Assembly (NCBI GenBank): GCA_944390825.1
Contig: CALXRG010000005.1
Coordinates: 1 to 64,000, forward strand
Reading direction: 5' to 3'
Source of the DNA: an uncultured Akkermansia sp.
GTDB lineage: Bacteria > Verrucomicrobiota > Verrucomicrobiia > Verrucomicrobiales > Akkermansiaceae
Length of the DNA stretch: 64,000 nt
The position numbers were made by a program, and so were the translations under genes. The notes below the pieces were generated by a model that was not told the origin of the DNA, searched no databases, and was given only the letters and a program-made list of their open reading frames with translations. Of the stretch, positions 11,355-59,741 are shown piece by piece. Position 1 is the stretch's first letter. Every line of letters starts with the position of its first letter.

Positions 11355-11379
11355 TACCACCAACTGATCTCAATCAACC

Positions 11380-12096
11380 ATGCCCGCCCTCCGTCGCATC
11401 ACCTGCCAGCTTGCCCCGGCGATCCTCGCCCTGGGGGCAGTGGCCGGCGCTGCGGAGGAGACCGCGGCTGGTTCGGACAAAGCCAAAATCGCTTCGCTGG
11501 AGCGTCAGCTCACCACCCTGCGTGAGAGCTACGCCATGGCACGCGCCGATGCCGATGCGGCCCGCAAGCAGGTGCAGGAAATCCGCGCCCGCCTGGAAGC
11601 CCTCGGCAGCGGTGCCCTCGGTGAGGGGGAAGAGCGGCTGATCGAGGCGGTCTCCCAACTGGAGGCCTCCCGCCGGCAACTCCAGGAAACACGCCAGAGT
11701 GTCCTGCGCCTCACCGCCGCCATGAACGCCTACATCCAAAGCGCCCTCAGTGAGGACGCCGAGGCCCGCATGCAGCTCGAAGCCGCCATGCGGGACATGG
11801 AGGTAACCCTCGGGTTGCGCGCCATGCCTCAGGATGAGCTCGCCGGCACGGTGGATGATGCCACGATCCTGAGCATCGACTCAGAATCCGGCCTCATCGT
11901 CATCAACGCCGGGCGCGATGCCAAAGTCATGGTGGGCATGCCCATGCTCATCACGCGCGGCACCCAGCAAATCGCCGAAGCGGTTGTCACCGACGTACGC
12001 AAAAAAGTCGCCGGGCTGCTGGTGCGCAAGCACCTCAACCCAGCACTCAAAATAGACGTCGGCGACCATGCGTCCGTGACATCAACCACATACTAA
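11380..12096 (+). CDS. exported coiled-coil protein of unknown function inserted in the S10 operon
   Basis: I do not recognise the family. The 238-residue protein begins with a basic start and a hydrophobic stretch ending AGAAEE (residues 1-25), a probable signal peptide, so it should work in the periplasm or at the membrane. Residues 33-150 are charged, Gln/Ala/Leu-rich coiled coil. Residues 160-235 look like a small beta-rich domain (ILSIDSESGLIVINAGRDAK, VGMPMLITRG, AEAVVTDVRKKVAGLLV) resembling the SH3-like C-terminal repeats common in exported Verrucomicrobiota/Planctomycetota proteins. It lies 25 nt after rpsS and 23 nt before rplV on the same strand, so it should be co-transcribed with the ribosomal genes. 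Codon use matches its neighbours, which argues against a recent arrival. Confidence 0.85.
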   Translation: MPALRRITCQLAPAILALGAVAGAAEETAAGSDKAKIASLERQLTTLRESYAMARADADAARKQVQEIRARLEALGSGALGEGEERLIEAVSQLEASRRQLQETRQSVLRLTAAMNAYIQSALSEDAEARMQLEAAMRDMEVTLGLRAMPQDELAGTVDDATILSIDSESGLIVINAGRDAKVMVGMPMLITRGTQQIAEAVVTDVRKKVAGLLVRKHLNPALKIDVGDHASVTSTTY

Positions 12097-12119
12097 ATTC
12101 TTCAACAAATACCGAAACA

Positions 12120-12458
12120 ATGGAAGTGAAAGCAGTATACAAAAATGCACGCATCTCTGCGAAGAAGATGCGCGACGTAGCCGCCGCCGTCCAGGGCATG
12201 CCTGTCTCGCAGGCGACCGACGTGCTGAGCTACTCCCCGAAGAAGGGCGCCTACCTCCTCAATAAGACGCTCAAAGCCGCCGTCGCCAATGCGGAGAACA
12301 ACAACGGCCTTGCCGCCGATGAGCTCGTGCTCAAGAGCGTCATGGTCGACGAAGGACCCACCTTCCGCCGCACGATGGCCCGCGCCCGCGGATCCGCCAA
12401 CATGATCCGCAAGCGCACCTCCCACATCACCATCATCCTCGCCAACGTTCAGGCATAA
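12120..12458 (+). CDS. rplV: 50S ribosomal protein L22
   Basis: L22 lines the exit tunnel opposite L4 and is a known site of macrolide resistance changes. The 112 residues contain [20 protein letters not shown] and the C-terminal tunnel hairpin [21 protein letters not shown], followed by TSHITIIL. It resumes the S10 order after the inserted exported-protein gene. Confidence 0.98.
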
Positions 12459-12481
12459 CCCTCACAAAACTACATAACACT

Positions 12482-13216
<735 letters not shown>

Positions 13217-23291: not shown

Positions 23292-24956
23292 TCAGGAGCC
23301 TGGAGGGGTGTCGCGGGTCATGGCCTCGCGGTCGCGGCGGGGTGTGCCGTCGTCTTCCCGGAAGTTGATGTGCTCGCTGTCGAGGTAGTCATACTGGCCG
23401 TGGAGTCGCTGCTTAAAGTCTTCCGCGTTCCGCTGGGCTTTGGGGAGCCAAGCGACTTCGGCAAGGGCGCAGAGCCGCGGTACGAGCATGTATTGGAATT
23501 TGCTGTAGGTGGGGAGGTATTCGCTCCAGAGGTTGCCCTGGACGCCTAGGATGCGGGCTTGCTGCTCCGGAGTGAGGTCTGCCAGGCTGGGGTCGAAATC
23601 ATAAACGAAGCGCCAATCGCAGTCCCAGTGTTCGGTGATGGGTTTGTAGCCGGGGTCTTTCGGGTACTTTCCCTGGCCGTAGTCAAAGTAGAACCAGGGC
23701 AGGGGGGTAAGGATCACGGAATGGCCGGCTTTCAGGGCAGAGTATGCGGGCTGAATCCCCCGCCAGACCATGACGATGGCGCTGGGGTCGATGCCGCCGT
23801 CTTCCTGGATTTCATCCCAGCCGATGAGGCGGCGCTGGTGCTTGGCCAGTTCCCCGAGGCAGAAGTGGGTGAAGTAGTGCTGGATGCCTGCTTCGGTGGT
23901 GAGGTTGTGCTGCTTCATGAAGGCTTGGGCCTGGGGGCTTTGCTGCCACTGGGTGCGCGGGGCTTCGTCGCCGCCGATGTGGATGTAGGGGGCGTCCGGG
24001 AAGAGGTCGCAGATTTCGGTGATCAGATTGCTGAGGAACCGGAAGGTCTCGGGCTTCGGGGCGAGAACGTAGTCGTGCACGCCAAAGGTACAGGCGACTT
24101 GCGGGTTGTAGCCGGGGATGTCGCTGTTGCCGAGTTCGGGGTAGGCTGCAAGCAGGGCACAGCTGTGGCCGGGTACTTCAATCTCCGGGATGATGGTGAT
24201 GCCCCGTTCCCGGGCATAGGCGGTGATGTCGAGAATGTCCTCGCGGGTGTAGAAGCCGGACTCCGGTTTGTCGGTGTTGATGTGATCGCGCGTGACGGTG
24301 TCCCAGGTGCCCGGGCGGTGTGAGCCGATTTCGGTGAGTTTTGGGTATTGCTTGATTTCGACGCGCCAGCCCTGGTCATCGGTGAGGTGCCAGTGCAGGT
24401 GGTTGAGTTTGTAGCGGGCCATGAGGCGGATGATTTGCTTCATCTCGTCTTTGGTTCGGAAGTGGCGGCAGACGTCCACCATGAGGCCGCGGTATGCCAT
24501 GAGTGGCTGGTCTTCGATGTCCATGGCGGGCAGGGCCGCTTTGCCGTCACGCGCCTTCGTGGCGGCTTGGGCGAGAGTCTGGGCGGCAAGATGCAGGGCC
24601 TTGGGGTCGTTGACGGTGATGCTGATGCCCTCCGGTGCTACAGAGAGTGCGTACCACTCGGGGTCGATGCCACGGGCCTGCCGCAGGGTGAGGTCGCTTT
24701 GGGGGGCTCCCGTCCGGATGGTGATGCCTGCGGCTTGCAGGGCTCGCACGGCTGCGCTGCCGAGGGGGCTGCTGCTCGTCTGGGCGTCTACGTTGATGCC
24801 GTTTTCCAGGGAAAAGCCCGGAGCACCGGTTGTGACGTTGGCCCGGACGGGGTGCGGAATGAGGGCTGGAACTTGGTCTACGGGCGCGGAGGGGGCTGCC
24901 AGGGTGCAGGTGGCTCCCAGCAGGGACAGCATCGGTAGGATGGCTCGTGCGTTCAT
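23292..24956 (-). CDS. secreted beta-N-acetylhexosaminidase, GH20
   Basis: It removes terminal beta-linked GlcNAc/GalNAc from glycans such as mucin O-glycans. A signal peptide occupies residues 1-20 (...TCTLAAPSAP). The GH20b-like N-terminal domain runs to about 150, and the catalytic barrel begins YRGLMVDVCRHF. HLHWHLTDDQGWR and HIGGDEAPR carry the catalytic Asp330-Glu331 pair for substrate-assisted hydrolysis. NLWSEYLPTYSKFQYMLVPR is the conserved C-terminal Trp region. The length of 554 residues is complete. It lies between GH84 and dnaN, with its own near-leaderless promoter. Confidence 0.95.
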   Translation of the reverse strand: MNARAILPMLSLLGATCTLAAPSAPVDQVPALIPHPVRANVTTGAPGFSLENGINVDAQTSSSPLGSAAVRALQAAGITIRTGAPQSDLTLRQARGIDPEWYALSVAPEGISITVNDPKALHLAAQTLAQAATKARDGKAALPAMDIEDQPLMAYRGLMVDVCRHFRTKDEMKQIIRLMARYKLNHLHWHLTDDQGWRVEIKQYPKLTEIGSHRPGTWDTVTRDHINTDKPESGFYTREDILDITAYARERGITIIPEIEVPGHSCALLAAYPELGNSDIPGYNPQVACTFGVHDYVLAPKPETFRFLSNLITEICDLFPDAPYIHIGGDEAPRTQWQQSPQAQAFMKQHNLTTEAGIQHYFTHFCLGELAKHQRRLIGWDEIQEDGGIDPSAIVMVWRGIQPAYSALKAGHSVILTPLPWFYFDYGQGKYPKDPGYKPITEHWDCDWRFVYDFDPSLADLTPEQQARILGVQGNLWSEYLPTYSKFQYMLVPRLCALAEVAWLPKAQRNAEDFKQRLHGQYDYLDSEHINFREDDGTPRRDREAMTRDTPPGS

Positions 24957-25145: not shown

Positions 25146-28100
25146 TCAGAACTCGGGTTTGCTCTTGCGGAAGATGATTTCGTGGATCCATTTGCCGGGC
25201 TGTTTGGGCGCACGCAGAGTGATGCTGCCGCCTTTGCCGGGCAGTTTGCAGTAGCGGAGGAAGCCTTTGCGTGCCGGTTTGCCGAGGCCGGGGAAGGTGC
25301 ACTGGGCGTCGCCTACGACGACGACGTACTGGGCGCCTTCGGGAACGCGAATCTTGGTGTTGACGGCTTCATCGCAACTGTAGGCGGTCTTGAGGCTGCC
25401 GTCGGTGAGGGCTTCAGCTGAGCGGTTCGGATCCTGGGGCGTGGTGTCGATCCTGATTGTGTTGAGGTGGAACTCCCGGGGAGTGCGCCCTGTGTTGGTG
25501 ATGCGAATAGCCTTGATGGGTTTCCTGGGGAGCAGAGAGCCCTCGCAGCAGAGTTTGGTGCCGTCGCGCAGCTCGGTCCGGAGCCTGACGGTTTTGCGGT
25601 CCGTCTGAATCGCTTGGATGGTAGCCCAGTCTTTGATGTCGCTGTTCTCCAGGTTGACTTCGATCCGGGTGGCTTCAACAGGGGAGGCGAGAATGAGTTC
25701 AATGAACTGGTTGGGCTTCCAGGTCATGGATTCCATGATGCGATCAATGCGGATGCTGGTGGAGTCCTGGCTGACGGCAAGCCCGGCAAGTTGCGCAATA
25801 TTGGTGCGCGGCATGGCCGCCGCCGGGGCGTTGACGCTGAATTCATTGATGGCCAGCCTGACATCGCTGGATTGGGTGAGCAGGAAGCGGATGCTGCGGG
25901 CAGTCAGTGGCTCGTTGCCAAAGTCTTTGGTGATGGAGGAGCCGCTGACAGGTTCATCGACGGGTTTCCACTGCTCGCCGTCCGGGCTGTATTCGAGCTG
26001 AGCCTCAGCCAGTACGTCGGTACCCTTCTCGCCGCCGGTGATCAGAGAAATGGAGTGGATGACCGTGGGTTCCTTAAAGTCAAAGCCGTACCACTGGCCT
26101 TCCTGTTGTTTGGTTTCGGAACTCCAGAAGGTTTTGACGTCGCCGTCCCGGAGACGTTGCGGCGCGCGGTTGGGGTCGCCGCCGTTGCAGATAAAGTCGG
26201 GCCGCACGGTCTGGATGGGACTGCCCGAGACCGCGGCGTAGAGCTTGTAGTTCACGTAGTCGAAGATGGCGTTGAGGGAGGGCTCGATGACCTGGGAGCC
26301 CACCTGCACATCCGGTACATTGTTGACTCCTTGCATACTCCAGTTGCGGCGGGTGATTCCCCGCATCTCGATCAGGCTCCTCGCTGCCGGCAGCAGGGCA
26401 TCCAGACTCCGGACAGTGTCCGTTTCACTGAGCGCCCGCAGGGCATTCGTGCCGGCTGAGCCGGCCAGCCGGAATTTTTGGAACCACGGGGCGGCGTCCT
26501 CACGGACTTCCTTGAGATCCTTGCCGGTCATCAGTACCTTGCCGGCCTGCTCGATGCGCTGGAACTCCCGGGCCATCCGCTCCACGCCCGAAGCATCCGG
26601 AGCGCCCTTGGCCAGGGAGTCCCGGAAGCGACCGGCTGTTTCCGCGAGGTCGACGGATTCCTCCCGGTAGTACCCGTGCGTACTGGGCGTCAGGCTGGAA
26701 TTGTGATCACAGAACGCCTGCACCGCATCGTGGCTCTCGGGGTAGAGCCGCCGGATGCCTTCCTTCCACGAAGGAACCGAGTCAAACCCCTTGATATTCC
26801 AGCAGTAGTCCGCCACGCCAAACAGCGCTACCTTACTGGCTTCCGATTGTTCCATCGGGTTGGAGACGAAGCCGCTCATGGCGGTTTTCATCTCGTCTTG
26901 CTGCCCAAGGCCGTAGGTGCGGCCCATCGGGAGGCGGTTGCGGCGGTAGTCGTTCACCGGCCAGTTCCACCAGATGAAGGTGGGGCGACCGACTTGTTCG
27001 TTGACCCACTGCTGGCCTCCCAGCGTGATGTCGTGGACGACAGAGTCGCCGGTCCACATGATGTGAATACTCTTGTCCAGCCCCTGACCGAGTTCGCGGA
27101 GGTAGTCGACGTTGGCCCAAGCCCGGTTATAGCCGGTGGGGCACATGATGAGCTGCTGGCTGACGTCTTTGTGCTTGCGGATGAAGTGCTCGAGCAGATA
27201 GTTGCAGAGGGTGACCTGGCGTGATGCCTTGCCGATCTCACCAAAGGCATCGTCGACGAAAACACCGAAATCACGCACGCCAATGTCATACATCTGCTCC
27301 AGTTTTTTGCAGAGCCGATCCATATCCGTCTTGCCTCCATCCTGATTCCAGTTAATCGTATTGGCAGGGTGGATGGCCCAGACAAAGCGGACGTGGTTTT
27401 TGTGGGCGTACTTGACGAGCTCCCCGAGCTTCCTGGCTTCGTCCGCCGGATAAGGGACGTAGCAGCTGCCGCCGTGGTGGTATTTATCGTCTTTCGGGGC
27501 GTAGATGTAGATGTTCATTTTGTTGCGCCCGTAGAACTCGAACTGGGACTTGCGCGCTTCCGCTGACCAGGGAGCGCCGTAGTAGCCCTCGACGGTGCCG
27601 CGGAAGGGGAGATCCGGCCAATCGATGATTTCACCCAGCGGCAGTTCGCCCATTTGGGCGACTTCTTTGAGTGATTTGTCGGGGAAGGGATCCCGCTGGG
27701 CAAGCTGAGCGTGAGGAACGTTACGCAGGAGTTGGGTGAGGGTTTGCTTGGCGTAATACAGGCCAGTTTCGTCGTTGGCAATGGCTTTGAGCGTGCCGGG
27801 AGTGATGGTGATGGCGTAGGCGCCTTCTTTCGGTGGCAGTTTGTCCCAGTTGGATCCTTTGCTTTTTCTGCTGCGGATTTCGGTGGTGATTTTGCGGACG
27901 CGGGTGTACTGCTCCTGCAGACGGCAGTCCTGTGGTGTGGGATAGATGGGCTGGCGGACGATTTCCTGTTGTTTGGTTTCCTCCGGTTGGGTGGCTGCTG
28001 TGGAGGAGGTGATGATTTCTTCCTCGGCGCCTTCGGCAAAGGTATCATCTGCGCTGCCGGTGTCAGCTGAGTTCCGGGGAGTGGGGGGCGGCTGCCCGGG

Positions 28101-28565
28101 CTCGGTGTGCTTGGCGGGAGGCGGCGGGGTTTGCGGGCTGGCGGGGGTATCCGGCTGTTTGGCGGCGGTGCCGGCCGTAGGCGAAGGGGCGGGTGCGGGC
28201 TGTTTGGCGGCAGCGGTGGAGGATGCGGTTTTCCGGGCGGGATTCGGTCTCTCTGAGAGCAGAATGGGGGCTGAAGTGGCAGCAGTGGCGGCCGCCGGCT
28301 CCTCCAGGCCCAGCCATGCGGGTGTGAAGTGCTTTTCCATCACGGCCCAGCAGGCCAGCAGAATAAGTGCGAGTATGAGCCGGGGAGTGGTGAGCAGCTG
28401 CGGTACGGGCATGCTCAGCGTGCCTGCGGCAATTTTCTTTTTCATCCAGTCGGGCATGCGGCGCCGCTTTTTCCGGGCGGAGGTCTGCTGAAGCGCCCAG
28501 ACTGCAAACAGAATAACGACCAGTATCAGGGGGAGTTTCGGGATGATCGGGAGATAATCTTCCAT
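25146..28565 (-). CDS. membrane-anchored GH84 N-acetylglucosaminidase
   Basis: The 1139-residue enzyme is predicted to hydrolyse beta-linked GlcNAc. The GH84 catalytic core has FRGTVEGYYGAPWS (321-334) and FGVFVDDAFGE with the catalytic Asp438-Asp439 pair. The N-terminus has two hydrophobic segments (about 8-27 and 62-78) around a very basic stretch, then a Pro/Ala/Thr-rich linker to about 205. It is therefore tethered to the inner membrane rather than released, which is unusual for the family. Residues 785-925 look like an F5/8-type carbohydrate-binding domain (LRDGDVKTFWSSE, QWYGFDFKEP), with a second jelly-roll-like region after it. ATG 28565 is preferred to the frame opening at 28673. No clear promoter was found. 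Confidence 0.92.
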   Translation of the reverse strand: MEDYLPIIPKLPLILVVILFAVWALQQTSARKKRRRMPDWMKKKIAAGTLSMPVPQLLTTPRLILALILLACWAVMEKHFTPAWLGLEEPAAATAATSAPILLSERPNPARKTASSTAAAKQPAPAPSPTAGTAAKQPDTPASPQTPPPPAKHTEPGQPPPTPRNSADTGSADDTFAEGAEEEIITSSTAATQPEETKQQEIVRQPIYPTPQDCRLQEQYTRVRKITTEIRSRKSKGSNWDKLPPKEGAYAITITPGTLKAIANDETGLYYAKQTLTQLLRNVPHAQLAQRDPFPDKSLKEVAQMGELPLGEIIDWPDLPFRGTVEGYYGAPWSAEARKSQFEFYGRNKMNIYIYAPKDDKYHHGGSCYVPYPADEARKLGELVKYAHKNHVRFVWAIHPANTINWNQDGGKTDMDRLCKKLEQMYDIGVRDFGVFVDDAFGEIGKASRQVTLCNYLLEHFIRKHKDVSQQLIMCPTGYNRAWANVDYLRELGQGLDKSIHIMWTGDSVVHDITLGGQQWVNEQVGRPTFIWWNWPVNDYRRNRLPMGRTYGLGQQDEMKTAMSGFVSNPMEQSEASKVALFGVADYCWNIKGFDSVPSWKEGIRRLYPESHDAVQAFCDHNSSLTPSTHGYYREESVDLAETAGRFRDSLAKGAPDASGVERMAREFQRIEQAGKVLMTGKDLKEVREDAAPWFQKFRLAGSAGTNALRALSETDTVRSLDALLPAARSLIEMRGITRRNWSMQGVNNVPDVQVGSQVIEPSLNAIFDYVNYKLYAAVSGSPIQTVRPDFICNGGDPNRAPQRLRDGDVKTFWSSETKQQEGQWYGFDFKEPTVIHSISLITGGEKGTDVLAEAQLEYSPDGEQWKPVDEPVSGSSITKDFGNEPLTARSIRFLLTQSSDVRLAINEFSVNAPAAAMPRTNIAQLAGLAVSQDSTSIRIDRIMESMTWKPNQFIELILASPVEATRIEVNLENSDIKDWATIQAIQTDRKTVRLRTELRDGTKLCCEGSLLPRKPIKAIRITNTGRTPREFHLNTIRIDTTPQDPNRSAEALTDGSLKTAYSCDEAVNTKIRVPEGAQYVVVVGDAQCTFPGLGKPARKGFLRYCKLPGKGGSITLRAPKQPGKWIHEIIFRKSKPEF

Positions 28566-28727
28566 GGGGGATGGCAAGGTGCTGTGATGAGGAGGGCTGC
28601 TTGCGGTGCGCTGCAGGGTGGATGAACGGCAGCACAGCGGCCGGTTGGTTCGTGAAGATGGGCCCCCGGCCACGCCCGGGTCTCCGCGCGGTTCGGGGGG
28701 ACGGGCGGGTTATTTCGGGCGGGTTAC

Positions 28728-29641: not shown

Positions 29642-29670
29642 TTGATGTGTTTAAGGTATTGCGTTAATGT
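29642..29670 (+). promoter_or_regulatory. weak candidate promoter of the ankyrin gene
   Basis: TTGATG (29642-29647) and TAATGT (29665-29670) are 17 bp apart, with an in-frame ATG at 29676 five nt later. The -10 match is poor (3 of 6). The rest of 29461-29641 holds T-rich and G-rich non-coding sequence with no gene. Confidence 0.35.
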
Positions 29671-29675
29671 TTGTT

Positions 29676-30467
29676 ATGAAGAAGATGCTCAGTTTGATCA
29701 AGGCGTGCAAGGCTGGTGATATGGAGCTGGCGAGGGCCCGGCTTGCACAGGGGGAGTCGGCGGCTCAGGCGAGTCCGAAGGGGAAGACGGCTCTCATGTA
29801 TGTGTGCCGCTGGGGAGATGAGGCTTTTGCCCGCCGGCTTATCGAAGCCGGGGCGGATGTGAATGCCCGCACGCAGCGGGGAAAGTCACCGCTGATGTAT
29901 GCCTGCCGGAGTGGGGCGTGCAGTGTGGTGCGTCTGCTGCTGGAGCGCGGTGCCGGACTGGAGGTGCGGGATTGCAGGGGGCGTACACCGTTGCTTTACG
30001 CTGTCCGCCGGGGAGACCCGGAGGTGGTGCAGTTGCTGCTGGATCGGGGCGCTGATGCCGGGGTGCGTGATGCTCAGGGGCGCGGTATGGTACACCACGC
30101 TGCGTGGAAGGGAAATTGGGCTATACTGGACAGGCTGTTGCGCGACGGTGCGCATGGGGATGAGGATGTGGATGCCATGGGCTGGAATGCGCTTCACTTG
30201 GCCTGCTGGAAGGGACGCCGCAGTGTGGTGGAGTGTTTGCTGGCCCGGGGGATGAATGTGCAGAAACCGACTCCGGATGGCCGTACGCCGCTGATTCTGG
30301 CTTGCATGCGCGGACACCGCAAGCTGGCGGAGTTGCTGCTGTGGCGTGGGGCCAATCCGTTGGCTGTCGACCGGGACGGGCTGTCGGCGGCGGATTATGC
30401 CGACCGCAGCGGTAAGAGAAAGCTGCAAATGGCACTGGGCCGCTGTCGGTCAGAGCCGGACAGATGA
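29676..30467 (+). CDS. ankyrin-repeat protein
   Basis: The roughly 263-residue protein consists of seven or so ankyrin repeats of 33 residues, each with the G-x-TPLhxA / h-x-LLL-x-GA pattern (GKTALMYVCRWGDEAFARRL, GKSPLMYACRSG, GRTPLLYAVRRG, GWNALHLACWKG, GRTPLILACMRG). It has no signal peptide or other domain, so it is a cytoplasmic protein-interaction scaffold of unknown partner. Possible starts are ATG 29667, 29676 and 29685; 29676 is chosen because 29667 overlaps the candidate -10 box. Orientation differs from both neighbours. Confidence 0.88.
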   Translation: MKKMLSLIKACKAGDMELARARLAQGESAAQASPKGKTALMYVCRWGDEAFARRLIEAGADVNARTQRGKSPLMYACRSGACSVVRLLLERGAGLEVRDCRGRTPLLYAVRRGDPEVVQLLLDRGADAGVRDAQGRGMVHHAAWKGNWAILDRLLRDGAHGDEDVDAMGWNALHLACWKGRRSVVECLLARGMNVQKPTPDGRTPLILACMRGHRKLAELLLWRGANPLAVDRDGLSAADYADRSGKRKLQMALGRCRSEPDR

Positions 30468-48644: not shown

Positions 48645-50777
48645 GTGAAGCGACTTGTTATCAAAACGGCTGCCGTAGCACTGGGGCTTCCGGTGCTGTT
48701 CTCAGGCATGTCCCTGGCTGCTGATGTTCCGGTGGAGTCTACGGTTCCCTACCCTGGTGCAGAGCCTTCACAGGTGAGCCTTTCCGAGTCCGGGTCGGGC
48801 GAGTGCAGAACGCTGACGATGGGCAATAACCTGGTGCAGATGCAGGTGCGGGCGGATGCCGTGCCGAGCGCTGTGTTTTCCAGCCCGGTGGAAGCTTCCG
48901 GTGTGGCTGTTCCAACAGCCGCAGAGCCTTTTGTGGTGAAGCTTTCAAGTGGTGAGTTTCCTGCGTCTTCCTTTACATGCAGCGGGTTGAGCCTGGGGGA
49001 TGCCGCTGCTGCTGCGCCGGATAAGGTGCGCCGCGCGTCCGAGTCCCTGGCTGGTCATACGATTGCCGCCACCTTTACGAACAAGGAGGCGGGCGTTGAA
49101 GTTACGTGGGTGGCTACGATGCGCGATAAGACGTCCTACATCCGCCAGAGCTATAATATCCGTGCACTTAAGGACATTGAGCTTACCGGGTTTTCTCCGG
49201 TTCGTTTGACCGGTACCGGGTTTAGCATTCCAGGGCAGGTACCCGGTACTCCTTTGGTGAAGGAAGACGCGCGCCTCTTCTTTGGCGTGGAGTTGCCCGT
49301 GGCCCAGGCTACGGTTTCCGACAGTGGCGCGACGATCAGTTTTGACTGTACTCTCCCCATGAAACAGGGGGAATCCTACAGCTTCTCCACTGTAACCGGA
49401 GCCTACCCGGAGGGGCAGCTGCGGCGCGCCCTGCTGAGCTATATCGAACTCGAGCGGGCTCGGCCGTACCACCTCTTCCTCCAGTACAACTGCTGGTATG
49501 ATCACGGTCTCAATCCTACGGAGCAGAACATGCTCGCCACGGTGAAGGCTTATGGCGAAGAATTGGTCGGAAAGCGCGGTATCAAGCTGAATTCCTTCGT
49601 GCTGGACGACGGCTGGGACGACTACAATGACGACCTCTGGCAGCCCAATCCGCAGAAGTTCCCCAACGGGTTTGGCAAGCTGGCCGAGGCGATCCGGGCC
49701 ATTGATTCCAACTTTGGTATTTGGATTTCGCCGCTGGGCGGGTACTCGGGTTTTGAGGAAAGGGCCGAGCATGGACGTCGCATGGGGCTGATTCCCCCGG
49801 AGCAGAAGGTGCTTGATCTTTCCTTCCCGGGTTATTACAACTGGTATCTCAACCGTTGCAGTGAGCTGATGCAGAAAGACGGCGTGAATTTCTTCAAGTG
49901 GGATCGCGCCGGCAGTGGCGTATCGCCCCACTTTATGGCGCTGCTGCGCATTTCCGAACAACTGCGGGGAATCAATCCGGACGTTTTCCTGAGCACGACT
50001 GTCGGTACGTGGCCCAGCCCCTTCTGGCTGAATTTCGTCGACTGCATTTGGAGAACCGGTACCAGTGATGTGAACTGGATTGGCAAGGGGTCCAACCGTG
50101 AGCAATACATCACTTACCGTGATGCCGCCTGCTACCGCGTCATCGTGCAGAAGGCTCCGATCTTCCCCCTCAATTCACTGATGCACCACGGTATTGTGCT
50201 GGGTGTCGAGTTCCAGGGTAAGCGCACGTCTGACGCCCGTGCTTACGTCGAAGGCAAGGCGGAGGAACCGAAAGACGGCGATGGGGATTTCCTCTCCGAT
50301 ACGACAAAGAACACCGTGGATTTCCCCGTCAACAACGACCTCAAGAAAGACATCCGCATCCTGCTGGGTGCCGGTGCCAACCTTCAGGAACTCTACCTGA
50401 CTCCTGCCATGATGAATGACAAGGCATGGGATGACATCACGGAGGCGATCAAGTGGAGCCGCCGCTTTGCCGATGTGACGGCTGACACTCACTGGGTAGG
50501 GGGTGACCCCGAGAAGCTGGAGGTCTACGGCTATGCCTCGTGGCGCAAGGATAAAGGCGCAACTCTTGCTCTGCGCAACCCGGATGACCAACCGCGCACG
50601 AGTCGCCTCAATGCTCAAATTTTTGAGCCGACCACGCCCGGTGCCATCAAGCTCGGTGCTTCCTATCCCGATCAGCGCGTGAAGGAGCTTGAGTTGCCGG
50701 ATAACGGCTTCGTCGAGATCAAGCTTGAGCCCTTTGAGGTGCTGGTGTTCGACGTGCGCTTTGACAGTGCCCGGTGA
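48645..50777 (+). CDS. secreted GH36-like alpha-galactosidase/N-acetylgalactosaminidase
   Basis: The 710-residue protein has a signal peptide (1-26, ending MSLAA). VLDDGWDDYNDD and FFKWDRAG in the barrel are the GH27/GH36/raffinose-synthase-type LDDGW and KWD motifs, the latter with the likely nucleophile Asp. The N-terminal region (30-280) is a beta-sandwich as in GH36 enzymes and the C-terminus (about 620-710) a beta domain. Terminal alpha-linked Gal or GalNAc, as on mucin blood-group structures, is a plausible substrate, but specificity cannot be read from the sequence. The start is GTG 48645. It ends 99 nt before the small lipoprotein gene. Confidence 0.85.
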   Translation: MKRLVIKTAAVALGLPVLFSGMSLAADVPVESTVPYPGAEPSQVSLSESGSGECRTLTMGNNLVQMQVRADAVPSAVFSSPVEASGVAVPTAAEPFVVKLSSGEFPASSFTCSGLSLGDAAAAAPDKVRRASESLAGHTIAATFTNKEAGVEVTWVATMRDKTSYIRQSYNIRALKDIELTGFSPVRLTGTGFSIPGQVPGTPLVKEDARLFFGVELPVAQATVSDSGATISFDCTLPMKQGESYSFSTVTGAYPEGQLRRALLSYIELERARPYHLFLQYNCWYDHGLNPTEQNMLATVKAYGEELVGKRGIKLNSFVLDDGWDDYNDDLWQPNPQKFPNGFGKLAEAIRAIDSNFGIWISPLGGYSGFEERAEHGRRMGLIPPEQKVLDLSFPGYYNWYLNRCSELMQKDGVNFFKWDRAGSGVSPHFMALLRISEQLRGINPDVFLSTTVGTWPSPFWLNFVDCIWRTGTSDVNWIGKGSNREQYITYRDAACYRVIVQKAPIFPLNSLMHHGIVLGVEFQGKRTSDARAYVEGKAEEPKDGDGDFLSDTTKNTVDFPVNNDLKKDIRILLGAGANLQELYLTPAMMNDKAWDDITEAIKWSRRFADVTADTHWVGGDPEKLEVYGYASWRKDKGATLALRNPDDQPRTSRLNAQIFEPTTPGAIKLGASYPDQRVKELELPDNGFVEIKLEPFEVLVFDVRFDSAR

Positions 50778-51552: not shown

Positions 51553-52398
51553 ATGAAAGCAACGATTACACGTTTCGGTGTCAGGGCTCTCTCCCTTGGG
51601 ATGATGGCCGCATTCGCAGTCTCTTCTTCCGCTTTTGCGCAGGATGCAGCAGCTGAGGGAGCAGCCGCAGTACAGAAGACCATGCTCGATAAGTGGGTGA
51701 TTGATGGTGGCTGGACCATGATCCCGCTCGTCATCCTTCTGTTCATCACGCTTTATCTCATGCTTCATTGTGAGATGACACTCAAAAAGGCCAAGTTCTG
51801 CCCGGATGATCTCAAGGCCCAGCTGATTGCTCTGATGGGCGAGTGCCGTGTGCGCTCCGCCATTGAGCTCGCTGCTCAGAATCCCTCTTACCTTGGCCGT
51901 CTCGTCGCATATGCGCTGCCGAACATTGACGCCAACCGGCCTGAGGATCTCGGCAAGGACGGCATCGAGGATGCTATTGCGGATTTCACCGCCAACGAGC
52001 GCCCCGGCATGATGAAGACGGTGGACATGCTCGCCCTCTCCTCCACCATTGCTCCGTCCATCGGTCTGTTCGGTACGGTGCAGGGCATGGTTGAGGCTTT
52101 CGCCATTCTCGCTGAGACAGGCCAGGCCGACCCGACCACGCTGGCAGGTTCCATTTCCGTGGCTCTGCTCACGACCTTCTGGGGTCTGATTATTTCCATC
52201 ATCGCCATGCCGGGCTTCTTCTTCTACAAGAAGCGTGCCCAGGCTCTGGAGGCCTCCTGCATCAACGCCGTTGAGGAAATGATCAGCACCTCCATCAACG
52301 TCCTTAACGCTGATGCTCAGCTCGCCCGCATCCCGGAGGGTCTTAGCGGCGGCGAAGAAGAGGAGTACATCGAAGAAGGTGAGGAGGCTCAAGCCTGA
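51553..52398 (+). CDS. MotA/TolQ/ExbB proton-channel protein
   Basis: The 281-residue inner-membrane protein forms the proton channel that energises an envelope machine with ExbD. It has a cleavable signal-like start (to about 30, SSSAFAQDA), a first transmembrane helix (WTMIPLVILLFITLYLML), a cytoplasmic loop and the two C-terminal helices with the signature TVDMLALSSTIAPSIGLFGTVQGM and SISVALLTTFWGLIISIIAMP. The acidic tail (GGEEEEYIEEGEEAQA) is lineage-specific. It leads the operon with two exbD genes and the TPR gene; no tonB gene adjoins. Confidence 0.93.
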   Translation: MKATITRFGVRALSLGMMAAFAVSSSAFAQDAAAEGAAAVQKTMLDKWVIDGGWTMIPLVILLFITLYLMLHCEMTLKKAKFCPDDLKAQLIALMGECRVRSAIELAAQNPSYLGRLVAYALPNIDANRPEDLGKDGIEDAIADFTANERPGMMKTVDMLALSSTIAPSIGLFGTVQGMVEAFAILAETGQADPTTLAGSISVALLTTFWGLIISIIAMPGFFFYKKRAQALEASCINAVEEMISTSINVLNADAQLARIPEGLSGGEEEEYIEEGEEAQA

Positions 52399-52489
52399 GT
52401 CATACCTCCATGTCCGGGTCTGCCCGCTGTGAGTCAGGCTTCGAGCCGCCTTGCTCGGGCAGGCATGAATTCAACATCATCAGATAACG

Positions 52490-53017
52490 ATGGCAAGCAA
52501 AAAAAACAAGCGCCCCAATGATGAGGTGAGCGGAGACGTCAATCTGTCTCCGATGATCGACTGCTGCTTCCTTCTGCTGATTTTCTTCGTGGTAAATGCT
52601 ACCGCCATTACCGTGGCCAAGGATCCCTCCATCAAGATGCCCAATGCAGTCACCTGCTCGGAGCTCAAAGATGCCAAGGGCTGTATCGTGGTCAATGTCT
52701 ATGCGGATGCAGAGAAAATGAGCACCAAGGCCTTGGATAAGTACAACAAAGCTTTCGGCGGCAAGGGCGTCCAGTGGAGCATGGCAGACGTCAACGGCAA
52801 GACTACTGGCTACGCGCCCGGAGAGGAGCAAAAGCTTATTGACGACATAGGCAAGACCAAGGATATCCTGAAGTCTCAGAAAATCGATGAGACCCAGATC
52901 CGGCTCTACGTGCGCGGCGATCAGAACACTCCGTGGGAGCGCACCGCCAAAGCAATCCAGTGTGCTGCCCAGGCAGGTATCTCCAACCTGGTGTTCGGCA
53001 CGTTGCCGACCAAATAA
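52490..53017 (+). CDS. ExbD/TolR-family protein, first copy
   Basis: The 175-residue bitopic protein has the ExbD core near the N-terminus: VNLSPMIDCCFLLLIFFVV with the essential membrane Asp, then a periplasmic domain. The periplasmic part is longer than usual and contains a 65-residue stretch (ADAEKMSTKALDKYNK...) before the final TPWERTAKAIQCAAQAGISNL that ends ExbD domains. It lies 91 nt after exbB. Confidence 0.9.
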   Translation: MASKKNKRPNDEVSGDVNLSPMIDCCFLLLIFFVVNATAITVAKDPSIKMPNAVTCSELKDAKGCIVVNVYADAEKMSTKALDKYNKAFGGKGVQWSMADVNGKTTGYAPGEEQKLIDDIGKTKDILKSQKIDETQIRLYVRGDQNTPWERTAKAIQCAAQAGISNLVFGTLPTK

Positions 53018-53040
53018 CCCCGAGCGTATCATCAGTAACC

Positions 53041-53535
53041 ATGGCAAGACATAAAAAAATCGAAGTCGAAGAGCAGGGAGATCCCGAGATGAACATCTCC
53101 TCCCTCATTGACTGCTGCTTCCTTCTGCTGATTTACTTCCTGGTGGCTACCACCCTGGTGAGCGAGAAGAAGATCGACATGGCCATGCCTTCTTCCTCCC
53201 CGTCGGATGGCGCCCCGCCCCCGCTGGAGCCCGGACGCATTCAGATCAAGGCCGACGGCTCGGTGCTCTGGGGCTCCGGTGCCAGTGCTGTCCAGGTAGG
53301 GTCGGCTTCGGTCGGTATTGATCCGGCCTCCGATGCTTACCGCGATGTCGGTCGCCTCAGCGAGCTCGTCGATAACCTCAAAACCCTGAAGGACAACGCC
53401 AAAGCCGTTGATGCCGAGCCCATCATCATGCTCAACAGCAACGGCAGCACCCCTCACCAGCGCGTCGTGGACGTCATGTCCGCCCTTGCTGAAGCGGGCA
53501 TTCAGTCCGTCGGTTTGGAAACATCCATCGAGTAA
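53041..53535 (+). CDS. ExbD/TolR-family protein, second copy
   Basis: The 164-residue protein has MNISSLIDCCFLLLIYFLV with the essential Asp in the single transmembrane helix, a Pro/Ser-rich linker (SSSPSDGAPPPLEPG) and an ExbD periplasmic domain ending GSTPHQRVVDVMSALAEAGIQSVGL. It differs enough from the first copy (24 nt upstream) to form a heteromeric ExbD pair rather than a recent duplicate. ATG 53041 follows the first copy directly. Confidence 0.9.
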   Translation: MARHKKIEVEEQGDPEMNISSLIDCCFLLLIYFLVATTLVSEKKIDMAMPSSSPSDGAPPPLEPGRIQIKADGSVLWGSGASAVQVGSASVGIDPASDAYRDVGRLSELVDNLKTLKDNAKAVDAEPIIMLNSNGSTPHQRVVDVMSALAEAGIQSVGLETSIE

Positions 53536-53561
53536 TCCCCTTCACTTGAACCATCCCAAGA

Positions 53562-53596
53562 GGGGAGTCGTGCGGCTTTGCCGCAGCTCCCCTTTT
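53562..53596 (+). terminator. terminator/attenuator between exbD and the TPR gene
   Basis: GGGGAG...TGCGGC (53562-53576) pairs with GCCGCA.CTCCCC (53580-53592), followed by TTTTC. The next gene starts 44 nt later without a clear promoter, so partial read-through could set the ExbBD:TPR ratio. Confidence 0.75.
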
Positions 53597-53639
53597 CTTG
53601 TCCTTCCAACAATTAATCTTTTAACTACACGCACCGCAT

Positions 53640-56600
53640 ATGTTCCAATACTCCAAAACCGCGGCACTAGTCGCCATTGCTGCCCTCGTGGCGCCGGCAG
53701 TATGCCAGGCGCAGGACCTCGTGGGCTCCTTGGGGCAGGCCGAAAAACTCAACAAGGGCGGCAAGCCGGAGGAAGCCATTAAACTCTGCAACGCCGTCCT
53801 CAAGAAATTTGAGGCCAACACCAAGGTCGCGCAGCAATTCAAATACATGGCGCCCTTCTACTACTGGCAGCGCGCTACAGCCCAACTGCGCCTTAACAAA
53901 CTGGATGACGCTTACGAGTCCTTCAGAAAGATTGCAGAGGACGCCCAGTGGAAAGACGATCTCCTGCGTCAGCGTGCCAAGGACGCCCAAGCCCAGGCAT
54001 CCGGCGGCAAGAAACGCACCGTTGGCTACGACCCGCTGCTGACCATGTCTCTTTTCCAGATGGGCTACCTGCGCTTCAAACAGGCAGCTGGCGACGGCAA
54101 AACCCCGGGGGATCCCGCTAAGTTTGATGACGCCATCAAGAATCTCGAAGCTTATCTGGAACTGCTGGAAAAGGGAAAAGTCTCCGCGCAGGAGCGTGAG
54201 CAAAAGCTCAATGGCCAGGTCTGCTTCCTGCTGCTGCAGTCTTACCTTCTGAAAGAAAAACCGGATTTTGCGAAAGGGACCGAGTATTTGGAGCGCAGCC
54301 GCAAAGGCAAAGGCAAATTGCCCGAAGACATGGTGATGGATGGTCTCAACACCATCATCGGCGTGGCTTTGGATGAAAAGAAAGGTGCCAATGCTGATAT
54401 GATGGATCTGGCCTACAAGGCTCTTTCCACCATTCCTGCCATGGAGCCCACGGCTGCTGCACCGAATGTCAGCAAGTTCATCGCCTACGGCAGCCGGGCC
54501 GCCAGCTTTGCACAGCGCGAGCTCAAGGCGGGCAACGCAGCTACCGCAGAAGCAGCCGGACGCATCATGGCGACGGTGTTTGGCATGGTTCCGGGCACGG
54601 ATGACGTGCTCGCAGATCTTGAAGTCCAGAGCAAGTGGGCGGGCAAGGATCCGGCCATTGCCCTTCCGGTGGACTCAGGCAGCGGACGCCGCTACAGCGT
54701 CAAAGCCATCAACGCACTTAACACGGCGTACGGCAAACTGGTAAGCGATAACACTGATCCGGAAGCCTATGCCCTGCTTTCCGCTGCCAATGTCAACCTG
54801 AGCATGGGCTCCAACCGCATGGGCAAGGCAGGCTTCCAGGTCCTGCTCGATCGCTATCCCGGCATTTCCAACAAGAACAAAGAAGGCAAAGTGGAGCAGC
54901 TCGCCCCCAAGCTGAAGTTCCAGCTGGCGCAACTGCAGTACCTCACCGGCAACGAAGCTGTAGGTCAGCAGCTGGAAGCCTCTCTGAGCGATGCCGACCT
55001 GGGGGATGAACAGTCCAAGAACCTCGTCTTCAACAAGATGCGGCGTCTGCTCAAGGAGAACAACTGGGAGGGAGTCATCCCCGTGGCCGAAGAAGTCGTT
55101 GCTGTCAACAAAGCCGCACCCTCGAGCATCGCGGCAGCCACCGCTCAGTTCGTCATATGCGCCGCCAACTTCAAACTGGGCAGACCGGATGAAGTTGTCG
55201 CCAAGACGGAGGCCTTCCTTGCCAGCGGTAATCTCAAACCCGGCACGACCAAAAACGATCTCAAGCCCGCTCAGGTCGCCGATTACGAGCACCAGCTCTA
55301 CTTCTTCCTCATCGACGCCTACAACAAACTGGGAGCCGCGAACCCCGCCAACTATGACAAGGTCGTGGAGACCTTTGACAAGTTCCGTCAGAAGTATCCG
55401 TCCAACGACGAGGCAGAGAACAAGCTCATCTCCAACACCGTCTACACGGTCGTTGATGCTCTGCTGAAGCGCGCCACCATGGCCGATGAGGAGGGCCACA
55501 AGGCAGATGTTGCCAAGGCGCTGGAGTACGCCAAACTGATCAGTGACAACTGGCCCGCCTGCGACGTCTATCCGGCTGCACAACTGCTGCGGGGCAACAT
55601 CATGATCAACGGCGACGACGACGCGGCCAAGCCCGAGGGCATGAAGGCACTCGAGATGGCGTGCGAAGCCGCCCTGAAACAGGAAAACGGCAAAGGCAAA
55701 CCCATCGCTGCCAACGCTCTCTATCTGCTCTACTCATACGGTCCCGAGTTCAAGCAGGAAGGCGAGACGGATGAAGCCCTTGCTGCCCGTATGAAGCAGC
55801 TTGCCGATCGCTTCTGGAATGAGGCTGACCATGAGGGCAACAACTACGCTCTCGACATGAGTGGCGTCCAGCTGCGCCGCGATGTCAAGGACAAGGCGGG
55901 CAAGGACGTCTTTGAAGCGGATCTGGCCAAAGCCCGTGAGGTCATTGCCCGCGAGGCCACCTATGCCTTCAAGAACAACCGCACCAACAAAGGCTTGGAG
56001 ATGGCTATCAACTCCTACGTGGACTCCTACGTGGAAGGCAACGAGGCTCTCTCCGGTCAGAAGCTTACTGCGGATCAGGTCATTGGGCACTTGGAGAGCT
56101 TCCCCGGTATCCAGCCGGACGACAAGTACACGCAGGCTATTCTTTACATGGCCCGCATCACTCAACTGCAGAAGCAGATGGATGCTATCCGCCAGTCCAT
56201 GGGCAATAACGAAGCCGAAAATGCAGCCAAGAATACTGAGATTGCCCGCATGCGAGAAAACGTGCAGACTCAGATCCGGCAGATGCGCAACAAGTTCAAG
56301 CCCGAGGAGCTCACGGACTTTATCTGCCTCCAGGTGGGTGATAACCTCGTGAACTTCGTGGAGGCAGTCGGAGCGGCCGGCAACAACAGTGATGATCTGA
56401 AAGACGCCGTTTCGTACTACGACAAGGTGATTGAGCGCAAGAGCCCGCAGACGATGGCTGCTACCGTGGGCAAAGCCCGCGCGGCGAAGCTCTCGGGTGA
56501 TGTGGATGGAGCCATCACTCTGCTGACGCAGGTGACAGCTCCCGGCGCCTGCTCCGATGGAACCGTGGTTGCCAACGCGCTTTATCTCCTCACCGAGAGC

Positions 56601-57080
56601 TACCTGCAGAAGGGAGACACTGCCAAGGCCCTAGCCACCGGCAAGACTTACCTGAACAACCGCAGCGCTACTCGCCGCATCGAGATGAATATGCTCATGG
56701 CCAATGCTTACCAGAAGGCCGGCGACGACAAGAATGCACTGGTGACCTACATGAACATCTACAGTTCCAACAAGGGCAACGTCAAGTACTCGGCTCCGGC
56801 CTGTGCAGCCCTGATGAAGCTGCTCTGGGAGCGCAATACGCCCACCTCCGGTGATCGTCTTTCCCGCGAGTTCAAGAACTCTGACCGCTGGACCGCCTGG
56901 AACACGGGTGCCGACTACGTGAAGGTCCTCAAGGCTAACAAGTTCGAAGAGAAGATGAACTCGGAGGAACGCACGGCCTTCCGCGAAGTGGAAAAACTCG
57001 TCGAGCAGTACGGCAGTGATCCCGCTGTGCAGCGCGAGGAGAGCGACAACAGGCGTTTCCGTCAGCAGCTTGGCAAGTAA
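53640..57080 (+). CDS. giant exported TPR-repeat protein
   Basis: The 1146-residue protein has a signal peptide (1-25, ending AVCQAQ) and is otherwise almost wholly helical TPR-like repeats, for example AEKLNKGGKPEEAIKLCNAVL, YYWQRATAQLRLNKLDDAYESF, ATAQFVICAANFKLGRPDEVV and YLLTESYLQKGDTAKALATGK, ending RRFRQQLGK. It should form a large periplasmic scaffold. Its place directly after exbB-exbD-exbD suggests that it is the load moved or held by that proton-driven motor. I recall, without verification, that A. muciniphila uses a similar TPR/ExbBD-type complex for mucin uptake. The exact partner cannot be read from the sequence. Confidence 0.88.
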   Translation: MFQYSKTAALVAIAALVAPAVCQAQDLVGSLGQAEKLNKGGKPEEAIKLCNAVLKKFEANTKVAQQFKYMAPFYYWQRATAQLRLNKLDDAYESFRKIAEDAQWKDDLLRQRAKDAQAQASGGKKRTVGYDPLLTMSLFQMGYLRFKQAAGDGKTPGDPAKFDDAIKNLEAYLELLEKGKVSAQEREQKLNGQVCFLLLQSYLLKEKPDFAKGTEYLERSRKGKGKLPEDMVMDGLNTIIGVALDEKKGANADMMDLAYKALSTIPAMEPTAAAPNVSKFIAYGSRAASFAQRELKAGNAATAEAAGRIMATVFGMVPGTDDVLADLEVQSKWAGKDPAIALPVDSGSGRRYSVKAINALNTAYGKLVSDNTDPEAYALLSAANVNLSMGSNRMGKAGFQVLLDRYPGISNKNKEGKVEQLAPKLKFQLAQLQYLTGNEAVGQQLEASLSDADLGDEQSKNLVFNKMRRLLKENNWEGVIPVAEEVVAVNKAAPSSIAAATAQFVICAANFKLGRPDEVVAKTEAFLASGNLKPGTTKNDLKPAQVADYEHQLYFFLIDAYNKLGAANPANYDKVVETFDKFRQKYPSNDEAENKLISNTVYTVVDALLKRATMADEEGHKADVAKALEYAKLISDNWPACDVYPAAQLLRGNIMINGDDDAAKPEGMKALEMACEAALKQENGKGKPIAANALYLLYSYGPEFKQEGETDEALAARMKQLADRFWNEADHEGNNYALDMSGVQLRRDVKDKAGKDVFEADLAKAREVIAREATYAFKNNRTNKGLEMAINSYVDSYVEGNEALSGQKLTADQVIGHLESFPGIQPDDKYTQAILYMARITQLQKQMDAIRQSMGNNEAENAAKNTEIARMRENVQTQIRQMRNKFKPEELTDFICLQVGDNLVNFVEAVGAAGNNSDDLKDAVSYYDKVIERKSPQTMAATVGKARAAKLSGDVDGAITLLTQVTAPGACSDGTVVANALYLLTESYLQKGDTAKALATGKTYLNNRSATRRIEMNMLMANAYQKAGDDKNALVTYMNIYSSNKGNVKYSAPACAALMKLLWERNTPTSGDRLSREFKNSDRWTAWNTGADYVKVLKANKFEEKMNSEERTAFREVEKLVEQYGSDPAVQREESDNRRFRQQLGK

Positions 57081-57104
57081 TTAACCCCCAGCCTTACCAC
57101 AGAT

Positions 57105-58139
57105 ATGAAAGTATTGAATGTTATGACTCTGGCGCTTGCCGCCTTCAGTGGATTCGCTGTAGCGCAGGATGCCCCTGCCGCGCCCAAGCTTATTGTCTCG
57201 ATCATGAACAATAAGCGCTGGGTAGCGATCCCCTCTCTGCAGGCTCAAGGCAAGAACCTTGTTTTCATCAACCCGCAGACGACCGAACCCGCCGCAATGC
57301 CCGTTCGTGCGCCCTACCTGATTCACACCCCCAAGGAACTTGACAACGCCTTTGTTGACTACCGGGGTGGCGATTTGGCTGCGGCGATGAAGCAATTTGA
57401 ACAGGTGCGCGGCAAATATGCCGAGTACCGCGAGCTGGATGGCAACCCCTCTCTGCGGGCTGCCATGGCTGAACTTGACTGCGCGATGCGTCTCCAGAAC
57501 TGGGCGCACCTGGCGCAGGTGGGCGATGCCATCGCGGCCAAGACCTACGGAGACATCACACCCCGTCAGCTTGCCACCGTGCAGGCAGCGCGTTACGTGG
57601 CGCAGGCCATGAATGGCGTGGCTGATGCTTCGAAAGCCAAAGGCCTTTACAATGCCATCGCCAAGCAGCAGGCCAAGTATGCCGCGCTGAACAGCAATGG
57701 CACTGTGGAGAACATCGGTTTGCGTCCCTACAGCTGGTACTGCTATTGTCTGGGGCGCCTCGCCGAGGCCCAGATTCCGGCGGATCAGCTTCAGGGCACG
57801 ATCGCTGCGGGTGCTCTGCCTGTGGCCAATGAAGCTATCGACCGCTATTGCCAGGCTGCCGTCGCCCTTCATGGCAGCTCGCCTGAGCTTGCTGGCGACG
57901 CTACGATGCGAGCTCTCAAACTCCTCAACGCCATGCCCGGTGTGAAAGAGTATGCCAAGACCGCCAGTGCTGCGGGCCAGATGGATACCGCCGCCTGGAA
58001 CAAAGCCCCCAATGACTTCAAGGACGCCGTCGCCATGGCCCACCTCATCAAAACCGTCTATGCGCCGGAGGTGAAGGACAGCCTGGTAGACAGTCTTTCC
58101 GTCCTTTACCCGAAGCCGCAACCCAAGGCGGCGGAGTAA
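57105..58139 (+). CDS. exported protein of the ExbBD-TPR operon, unknown family
   Basis: I do not recognise the family. The 344-residue protein has a signal peptide (1-20, GFAVAQ) and then a short beta part (LIVSIMNNKRWVAIPSLQAQ) followed by helical, TPR-like sequence (GGDLAAAMKQFEQVRGKYAEY, LATVQAARYVAQAM, AIDRYCQAAVALHG). It begins 24 nt after the TPR gene and ends at a strong terminator, so it belongs to the same unit and probably to the same envelope complex. Confidence 0.82.
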   Translation: MKVLNVMTLALAAFSGFAVAQDAPAAPKLIVSIMNNKRWVAIPSLQAQGKNLVFINPQTTEPAAMPVRAPYLIHTPKELDNAFVDYRGGDLAAAMKQFEQVRGKYAEYRELDGNPSLRAAMAELDCAMRLQNWAHLAQVGDAIAAKTYGDITPRQLATVQAARYVAQAMNGVADASKAKGLYNAIAKQQAKYAALNSNGTVENIGLRPYSWYCYCLGRLAEAQIPADQLQGTIAAGALPVANEAIDRYCQAAVALHGSSPELAGDATMRALKLLNAMPGVKEYAKTASAAGQMDTAAWNKAPNDFKDAVAMAHLIKTVYAPEVKDSLVDSLSVLYPKPQPKAAE

Positions 58140-58952: not shown

Positions 58953-59741
58953 ATGAAACGTCTTCTCTTCATTCCCACGTGCACACTGTTGGCGCTCGGT
59001 TTCCTTTCCTCCTGCCAGAAAGAGGAAAAGTCCGCTCTCGAACTTGCCAGTGATTTGGTTACCGAGCTCCAGTCCGTCACCAACTACGAAACCGCAGAAG
59101 CCGCAGCTCCCCGCGTCGAAGCCATCAACAAGCGCTTCCAGGATGCCAGCGTGCGTACGCTGACGCTCAACGACAGCGCATTGCTGCGCAGCTCCACCGG
59201 TTCACCCGGGCATGAGGCCGACCGCTATGTGGAGGTCCTCTCCCAGCTCGCCCGCGAGATGGCCCGCGTCCGCGCCAGTCTCCCGGTTACCTCGCATGAT
59301 GGCGAGATCGACCAGCAGGAACTGCTGATGGCCGTAGGCGTCGCCTCCGGCAATGCTACCGTTTCGTCCACGGCAGAGGAAAGGGCCGCCGCCGGCAAGG
59401 CCTACTTGGAAGATGACGTGACGGAGTCGAACAAAGAGCCCGGCCGTTTTGCTGAGTGCTACGGCTCCAACGCCCTCAAGTCCGCTCTCGCCTACGTGGC
59501 CGTACCCTCGGAAGCTCCCGTGATGAAGTTCGACAGTGCGGCAGACGTGGTAGCCATCCCCGAAGCCGGTGCTGCCCCGGCCCCGGCAGCCGCCGATGGA
59601 GCTGACGCTGCCACTGCGGGTGGCGAGGAACCTGCTGCGGAAGAGACACCCGCAGACGCGCCTGCGGCTGAAGAACCGGCTCCTGCCGACACGCCCGCAG
59701 AAGGCGGTGAGGACGACCTGGATATCGAGATTGACCTCTGA
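58953..59741 (+). CDS. predicted lipoprotein with Ala/Pro/Glu-rich tail
   Basis: I do not recognise the family. The 262-residue protein starts MKRLLFIPTCTLLALGFLSS with lipobox LSSC (Cys21). Residues 25-185 are helical and polar (ELASDLVTELQSVTNYETAE, VEVLSQLAREMARVRASLP). The last 70 residues are almost only Ala, Pro, Glu, Asp and Thr (EEPAAEETPADAPAAEEPAP), a disordered acidic tail that probably extends into the periplasm, ending DLDIEIDL. Confidence 0.82.
   Translation: MKRLLFIPTCTLLALGFLSSCQKEEKSALELASDLVTELQSVTNYETAEAAAPRVEAINKRFQDASVRTLTLNDSALLRSSTGSPGHEADRYVEVLSQLAREMARVRASLPVTSHDGEIDQQELLMAVGVASGNATVSSTAEERAAAGKAYLEDDVTESNKEPGRFAECYGSNALKSALAYVAVPSEAPVMKFDSAADVVAIPEAGAAPAPAAADGADAATAGGEEPAAEETPADAPAAEEPAPADTPAEGGEDDLDIEIDL

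Follow-up and report, generated by a model that had tools for sequence, protein, structure and literature searches.

A five-gene operon that is almost certainly the Mul1 mucin-use locus of an Akkermansia species was identified in a 64,000-nucleotide stretch of DNA (hereafter, the window) from an uncultured member of this genus (GenBank assembly GCA_944390825.1, contig CALXRG010000005.1, positions 1 to 64,000), which corresponds to contig C5 of a 2.3-Mb genome. This identification was made because the 344-amino-acid (aa) product of the last gene passes the cut-off of the NCBIfam Mul1B model (NF052542, mucin_mul1B_fam; 248.5 bits, cut-off 75). It is proposed here, with a probability of about 0.5 for the statement as a whole, that the operon is Mul1, that its ExbB and two ExbD subunits form a 5:2 motor acting directly on the exported proteins Mul1A and Mul1B, and that it originated as a rearranged branch of a module spread across the Verrucomicrobiota. 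The five genes lie on one strand (+) at 51553-58139, are separated by short intergenic gaps (25 bases between the end of the mul1A gene and mul1B), and encode ExbB, two different ExbDs, an exported 1146-aa TPR solenoid and the 344-aa exported protein. The features of the operon are:

51553-52398 (+), exbB, MotA/TolQ/ExbB proton-channel subunit, 281 aa (PF01618, E 9.1e-23)
52490-53017 (+), exbD1, ExbD/TolR subunit, 175 aa (PF02472, E 7.7e-16)
53041-53535 (+), exbD2, second, different ExbD/TolR subunit, 164 aa, ATG at 53041 (PF02472, E 4.4e-23)
53558-53596 (+), stem-loop resembling a terminator or an attenuator, with a T-rich stretch after it, located between exbD2 and the mul1A-like gene (folding)
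53640-57080 (+), mul1A-like gene, 1146-aa exported all-helical TPR solenoid (weak TPR matches in Pfam, AlphaFold2, Foldseek)
56790-56918 (+), conserved C-terminal block, residues 1051-1093 of the TPR protein (SAPA..M...W.RN, D...A...G..Y; Mul1A alignment)
57105-58139 (+), mul1B, 344-aa exported protein with a small beta domain (29-73) and TPR-like helices (NF052542, AlphaFold2)

A preliminary description of this DNA had proposed the ExbB-ExbD-ExbD-TPR-exported protein gene set with a proton-channel pair containing two different ExbDs; all five genes were confirmed by Pfam and by their coordinates, and the channel pair is upheld by the PF01618 and PF02472 matches and by the intact channel residues described below. 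The relation to a mucin-use locus in A. muciniphila that the same description suggested proved right, the homology search having returned the Mul1B family match at 248.5 bits, and the 344-residue partner, which had been thought undescribed, is in fact already described as Mul1B in NCBIfam. The 1146-aa protein is, judged by position and family alignment, Mul1A.

The founding paper on the Mul1 (mul1A/mul1B) locus of Akkermansia muciniphila is that of Davey et al. 2023 (doi 10.1038/s41564-023-01407-w), which is cited in three later papers (PMC11790493, PMC12418764, PMC13174399). The locus is already named and known, the copy in the window being a further member. The mul genes, which specify pili and a periplasmic complex, are required for the internal accumulation of mucin products (PMC12418764, PMC13174399), a requirement published solely for A. 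muciniphila (PMC12418764), and several hydrolases have been marked as Mul1A-associated (PMC11790493). The operon in the window resembles the A. muciniphila locus in its Mul1B family membership and in the large exported partner adjoining Mul1B, and an A. muciniphila isolate (L123) carries the identical five-gene order; it differs in belonging to another species, with Mul1A 25% and Mul1B at most 34% identical to the A. muciniphila-type copies. The ExbB most like that of the window is from Candidatus Akkermansia intestinigallinarum (81%).

Motor subunits and exported partners

The motor channel is intact, as far as its sequence can tell. Residues T175, T207 and T208 of ExbB are invariant in all 81 family sequences, and the proton-binding Asp24 of the ExbD helix is retained in 79/79 ExbD1 and 77/77 ExbD2 sequences. 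ExbB aligns with the TolQ/ExbB structures 8vlw and 5sv0, and in alignments to TolQ and ExbD structures the conserved Thr and Asp residues fall on known channel positions. Because the Asp is kept in both ExbDs, a mixed ExbD1/ExbD2 pair is plausible, and such a pair may occupy the 5:2 motor. Like the Ton system, Mul1 has ExbB and ExbD subunits whose channel residues are intact, but it contains two ExbDs and a giant TPR partner, and neither TonB nor a receptor is present in the operon. One TolQ-like and two TolR-like subunits likewise make up the AglRQS motor, as in Mul1; Akkermansia is not known to have any link to motility. AglRQS is the motor of Myxococcus gliding named in PMC12204202.

The best PDB matches of ExbB are TolQ, and weak similarity to YbgF/CpoB was detected in Mul1A and in distant Mul1B proteins. 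Both features would suit an envelope-stabilising or division-linked machine of the Tol-Pal type, the loss of which would impair mucin uptake only indirectly. This explanation is considered very unlikely: the scores against the NCBIfam tolQ and tolR models are far under the cut-offs, and none of the genes observed next to the operon encodes TolB, Pal or TolA (a genome-wide search for them was not made).

Mul1A was predicted by AlphaFold2 to form a long single TPR solenoid with helices spanning residues 27-1145 (mean predicted local distance difference test score, pLDDT, 88.6), the curvature of which is unsure because the overall predicted template modelling score (pTM) is 0.60. Only weak TPR matches were obtained with Pfam. 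In Foldseek searches, the predicted structure matched large TPR scaffolds, including the periplasmic scaffold of the Campylobacter flagellar motor (9hmf_K, 3.6e-6), as well as SprE of the type IX system (8gl8_I). Mul1B was predicted to combine a small domain of five strands (29-73) with TPR-like helices (mean pLDDT 91.4); the protein has no Pfam match, and its predicted structure has no match in the PDB at E 0.001 or better. Both Mul1A and Mul1B begin with hydrophobic leaders that, read from the sequence, resemble signal peptides. A lipoprotein reading of the two proteins was rejected: a loose lipobox pattern was found in only 2/77 Mul1A and 8/73 Mul1B sequences, and in neither protein of the window. 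Residues 1051-1093 of Mul1A lie in the best-conserved 50-residue block of the Mul1A alignment and have no counterpart in 13 distant TPR relatives; this block is a candidate docking site, the contact of which would take the place of a transducer.

Distribution in Akkermansiaceae and kinship with a wider module

A scan of genome contigs with Mul1B alone gave no matches, and an ExbB alignment was used instead, by which 80 named loci were gathered. The order ExbB-ExbD1-ExbD2-Mul1A-Mul1B on one strand was found in all 72 loci on sufficiently long contigs, the other 8 being cut by contig ends. These loci include those of A. glycaniphila, an A. muciniphila isolate, Haloferula luteola, H. rosea, Luteolibacter marinus, Roseibacillus and metagenome-assembled genomes (MAGs) from ponds, and the Mul1B proteins of the free-living members scored 213-264 bits (cut-off 75). 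In a sample of the phylum, the Mul1B cut-off was passed by 22/23 genomes of the window's genus and 6/9 genomes of the family's other genera, and by no genome outside the Akkermansiaceae. A quick ExbB tree separated the gut copies from the aquatic ones as two sister groups, which jointly make up a single group (support 98, 86, 85). Partial duplications were also seen, namely a second Mul1A end with Mul1B (L135:7515-9122) and an extra 234-aa piece of Mul1A (L070:5959-6663).

MUL1 synteny has been stated to be absent from aquatic Akkermansiaceae and has been taken as a mucin-specific adaptation (PMC13174399, 2026). The five-gene order in free-living Akkermansiaceae contradicts this synteny statement as written; stricter identity limits or a wider locus may have been applied in that study. 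The free-living copies point to a general machine for the uptake of large glycans, contrary to the mucin-specific view (PMC13174399). A broader interpretation, in which Mul1 would be a 5:2 proton motor that has lost its TonB-type lever and drives the periplasmic TPR superhelix directly, forming an old glycan-uptake machine of all Akkermansiaceae, the aquatic ones among them, for which mucin use would be a late specialisation, is put forward as a tentative possibility.

Weak Mul1B matches in other Verrucomicrobiota led to a wider alignment (A5), which matches 223/289 genomes at 1e-5. Because weak A5 matches may be generic TPR proteins, 49 strong loci outside the family were inspected, which represent 19 of the family-level groups that have the module; as these loci were chosen by Mul1B score, the fractions given here describe strong matches and not the whole phylum. 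A Mul1B-like gene is followed on the same strand by ExbB and at least one ExbD in 47/49 loci, with two or more ExbDs in 46 of the 47, and a gene matching the Mul1A profile precedes the Mul1B-like gene in 34 loci. The resulting order, TPR-Mul1B-ExbB-ExbD-ExbD, is a rotation of the Akkermansiaceae order. The next gene encodes a 390-630-aa protein with an N-terminal membrane helix in 30 loci, and a [ST]xxxH motif is present in this helix in 26/30 of these downstream proteins, versus 4/102 other N-terminal helices in the same loci (Fisher p 3e-19). The SxxxH type is that of the motor-binding motif of TonB and TolA (PMC12204202). The far ends of ten such putative transducers consisted of a squalene-hopene-cyclase-like toroid in 7 and DUF4159 in 1, and had no Pfam match in 2.

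No convincing gene for a TonB-type transducer was found within 2.5 kb of 73 complete Akkermansiaceae Mul1 operons. A pattern search for a hidden transducer near these operons gave six matches across the 73 loci; each of them lies on the opposite strand, and none is convincing. An alignment of SQHop/vWA-type transducers gave no match in the window's genome. Clusters consisting of a TPR gene, a tolQ-like gene, two different tolR-like genes and a vWA transducer have been described in the Planctomycetes-Verrucomicrobia-Chlamydiae (PVC) group (PMC12204202); no published text linking these PVC motor clusters to Mul1 was found. Mul1 resembles them in having one TolQ/ExbB, two different TolR/ExbD subunits and one large TPR gene, and differs in its changed gene order, in the position of Mul1B after the TPR gene at the end, and in the missing SxxxH transducer beside the operon. 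Mul1 is probably related to the Verrucomicrobiota-wide TPR-Mul1B-ExbB-ExbD-ExbD module and looks like a rearranged branch of it. No earlier description was found of three points: the orthologues in free-living relatives, the relation to this module combined with the missing lever, and the conserved exbD2/mul1A hairpin considered below. The first two look new.

Both module types occur side by side in opposite orientation in one free-living Akkermansiaceae MAG (L133; 2514-8026 (-) and 9791-15875 (+)). After the set of the widespread type comes a gene for a 442-aa SxxxH membrane protein, part of which is prenyltransferase-like; no such gene accompanies the Mul1-type set.

Coupling of the motor to its partners

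In the proposed mechanism, ExbB and the two ExbDs would form a proton-driven 5:2 motor in the inner membrane with a mixed ExbD1/ExbD2 pair, which would act directly on the exported Mul1A solenoid and its partner Mul1B without a TonB-type lever. Force would presumably be passed on to a putative partner in the outer membrane, large glycans (mucin in gut species) would thereby cross the outer membrane into the periplasm, and bound periplasmic hydrolases would then cut the imported glycans. Direct coupling of the motor to Mul1A and Mul1B is given slightly less than an even chance. Several points weigh against it: the matches of Mul1A to TPR-solenoid folds are generic (TM-scores 0.1-0.3), a soluble TPR protein might do no more than tether enzymes, with the motor serving another purpose, and a TonB encoded elsewhere in the genome, with SLLSH in its membrane helix, could use the Mul1 motor.

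The strongest rival explanation concerns this orphan TonB. The preliminary description had inferred a motor without TonB, and by open reading frames and Pfam no tonB, tolA or TonB-dependent receptor gene was indeed found in the operon or adjoining it. Genome-wide searches, which covered named families only, detected one TonB and one TonB-dependent receptor, both on contig C3, and a genome wholly without TonB is ruled out; because of this pair, the absence of TonB holds for the operon alone. On C3, the genes for the receptor, an extracellular solute-binding protein (SBP_bac_5) and TonB form an operon without its own ExbB or ExbD (L016, G000:C3:56000-74000, 7357-12807). The Mul1 motor might therefore energise the single TonB and, through it, the single receptor, with Mul1A and Mul1B as co-transcribed periplasmic enzyme scaffolds outside the force path; the lack of ExbBD in the C3 operon, the SLLSH of the TonB helix and the description of MUL1 as Sus-like (PMC13174399) agree with this. 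However, two other ExbB-ExbD pairs exist in the genome (on contigs C11 and C18), the one on C11 adjoining its own TonB/TolA-like protein; the five Mul1 genes are separated in none of the 72 complete loci, with TonB encoded elsewhere; and there is neither a Pfam SusD match nor a TonB-dependent receptor gene beside the operon. Energising of the orphan TonB is hence considered unlikely. The comparison with SusC/SusD of Bacteroidota is similarly divided, for large-glycan import is common to both and MUL1 has been likened to Sus (PMC13174399), whereas Mul1A and Mul1B lack a Pfam SusD match and no SusC-type receptor lies beside the operon, the only receptor of the genome being on another contig.

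The C11 pair adjoins a 438-aa TonB/TolA-like protein, which has a long charged linker and SLLLH in its N-terminal membrane helix, and the Mul1 motor could pull through such an unlinked, non-TonB transducer if the protein were shared between motors. These features of the C11 protein and the known crossing over of TolA and TonB between motors (PMC12204202) favour sharing, which is nevertheless improbable given that the C11 protein adjoins its own ExbB-ExbD and that the transducer of the wider module is usually encoded directly 3' of ExbD-ExbD.

On contig C18, ExbB and ExbD are encoded together with an 821-aa TPR protein, which matches TPR_6 strongly, and a protein carrying a transglycosylase domain (L017, G000:C18:33000-47000, 6075-11878). 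Homology of Mul1A with this TPR protein was considered and rejected, no significant similarity having been detected. A lone ExbB is encoded on contig C24, and the next gene specifies a 214-aa protein that has a single N-terminal membrane helix and does not match ExbD (L019, G000:C24:7000-19000, 5141-6904); this arrangement is perhaps like the ExbD-less motors of PMC12204202.

The placement of Mul1 among phylum-wide ExbBDD-TPR motors provides a concrete hypothesis, that of a motor pulling a TPR scaffold without TonB, which bears on how Akkermansia takes in large pieces of mucin.

The exbD2/mul1A hairpin and neighbouring genes

The hairpin at 53558-53596 has a folding energy of -27.3 kcal/mol (z -3.9; 0/200 shuffles as good). 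It was missed by a terminator scan because its stem is interrupted, and was detected by folding. In 76 family loci, the 100 bases 3' of exbD2 fold much better than shuffles (mean z -2.85, with 36 under -3), compared with a mean z of about -0.1 to -0.2 in control regions 3' of exbD1, 3' of mul1A and within mul1A; the folding signal 3' of exbB is weaker (mean z -1.87). The hairpin sequence varies by clade with its pairing retained, as 69 doubly changed (compensatory) cells were counted versus 29 in shuffles, and its covariation is 0.32 versus 0.12-0.23 in slid controls. The exbD2/mul1A hairpin is conserved in position and pairing across the family, and the hairpin that the preliminary description had placed between exbD and the TPR gene is thus real and covarying. 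Because the tails of the hairpins are T-rich in part only, an attenuator and a processing signal are both possible, and a putative role in setting stoichiometry is a reasonable idea. The exbD2-mul1A gap is widened to 1.1-1.35 kb in A. muciniphila-type genomes and contains no clear gene (L123:11833-12943, L125:11834-13180).

A GH36-like gene with a weak melibiase match (4.6e-8) lies upstream of the operon at 48645-50777, and GH20 (23292-24956) and GH84 (25146-28673) genes lie on the opposite strand, approximately 23-27 kb from it. GH36 was rejected as a functional neighbour, since it adjoins ExbB only in the window and three fetched loci. Proximity to these genes had been read in the preliminary description as fitting glycan use; GH20 and GH84 are in the window as stated, but because GH36 is not conserved nearby and GH20 and GH84 are 23-27 kb away, genomic proximity is weak evidence for glycan use, which is supported instead by the published work on Mul1. 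The remaining neighbours are of the housekeeping kind; those conserved comprise an AsmA-like gene, encoded on the opposite strand, and endonuclease III-like, GNAT and truA-like genes.

Downstream of mul1B, after the GNAT gene, a 262-aa protein is encoded at 58953-59741, the leader of which resembles a lipobox (FLSSC); the protein is kept in 29 gut-clade loci and belongs to no Pfam family. Elsewhere in the window, a 266-aa protein encoded at 29667-30467 consists almost entirely of ankyrin repeats (Ank_2, E 2e-70).

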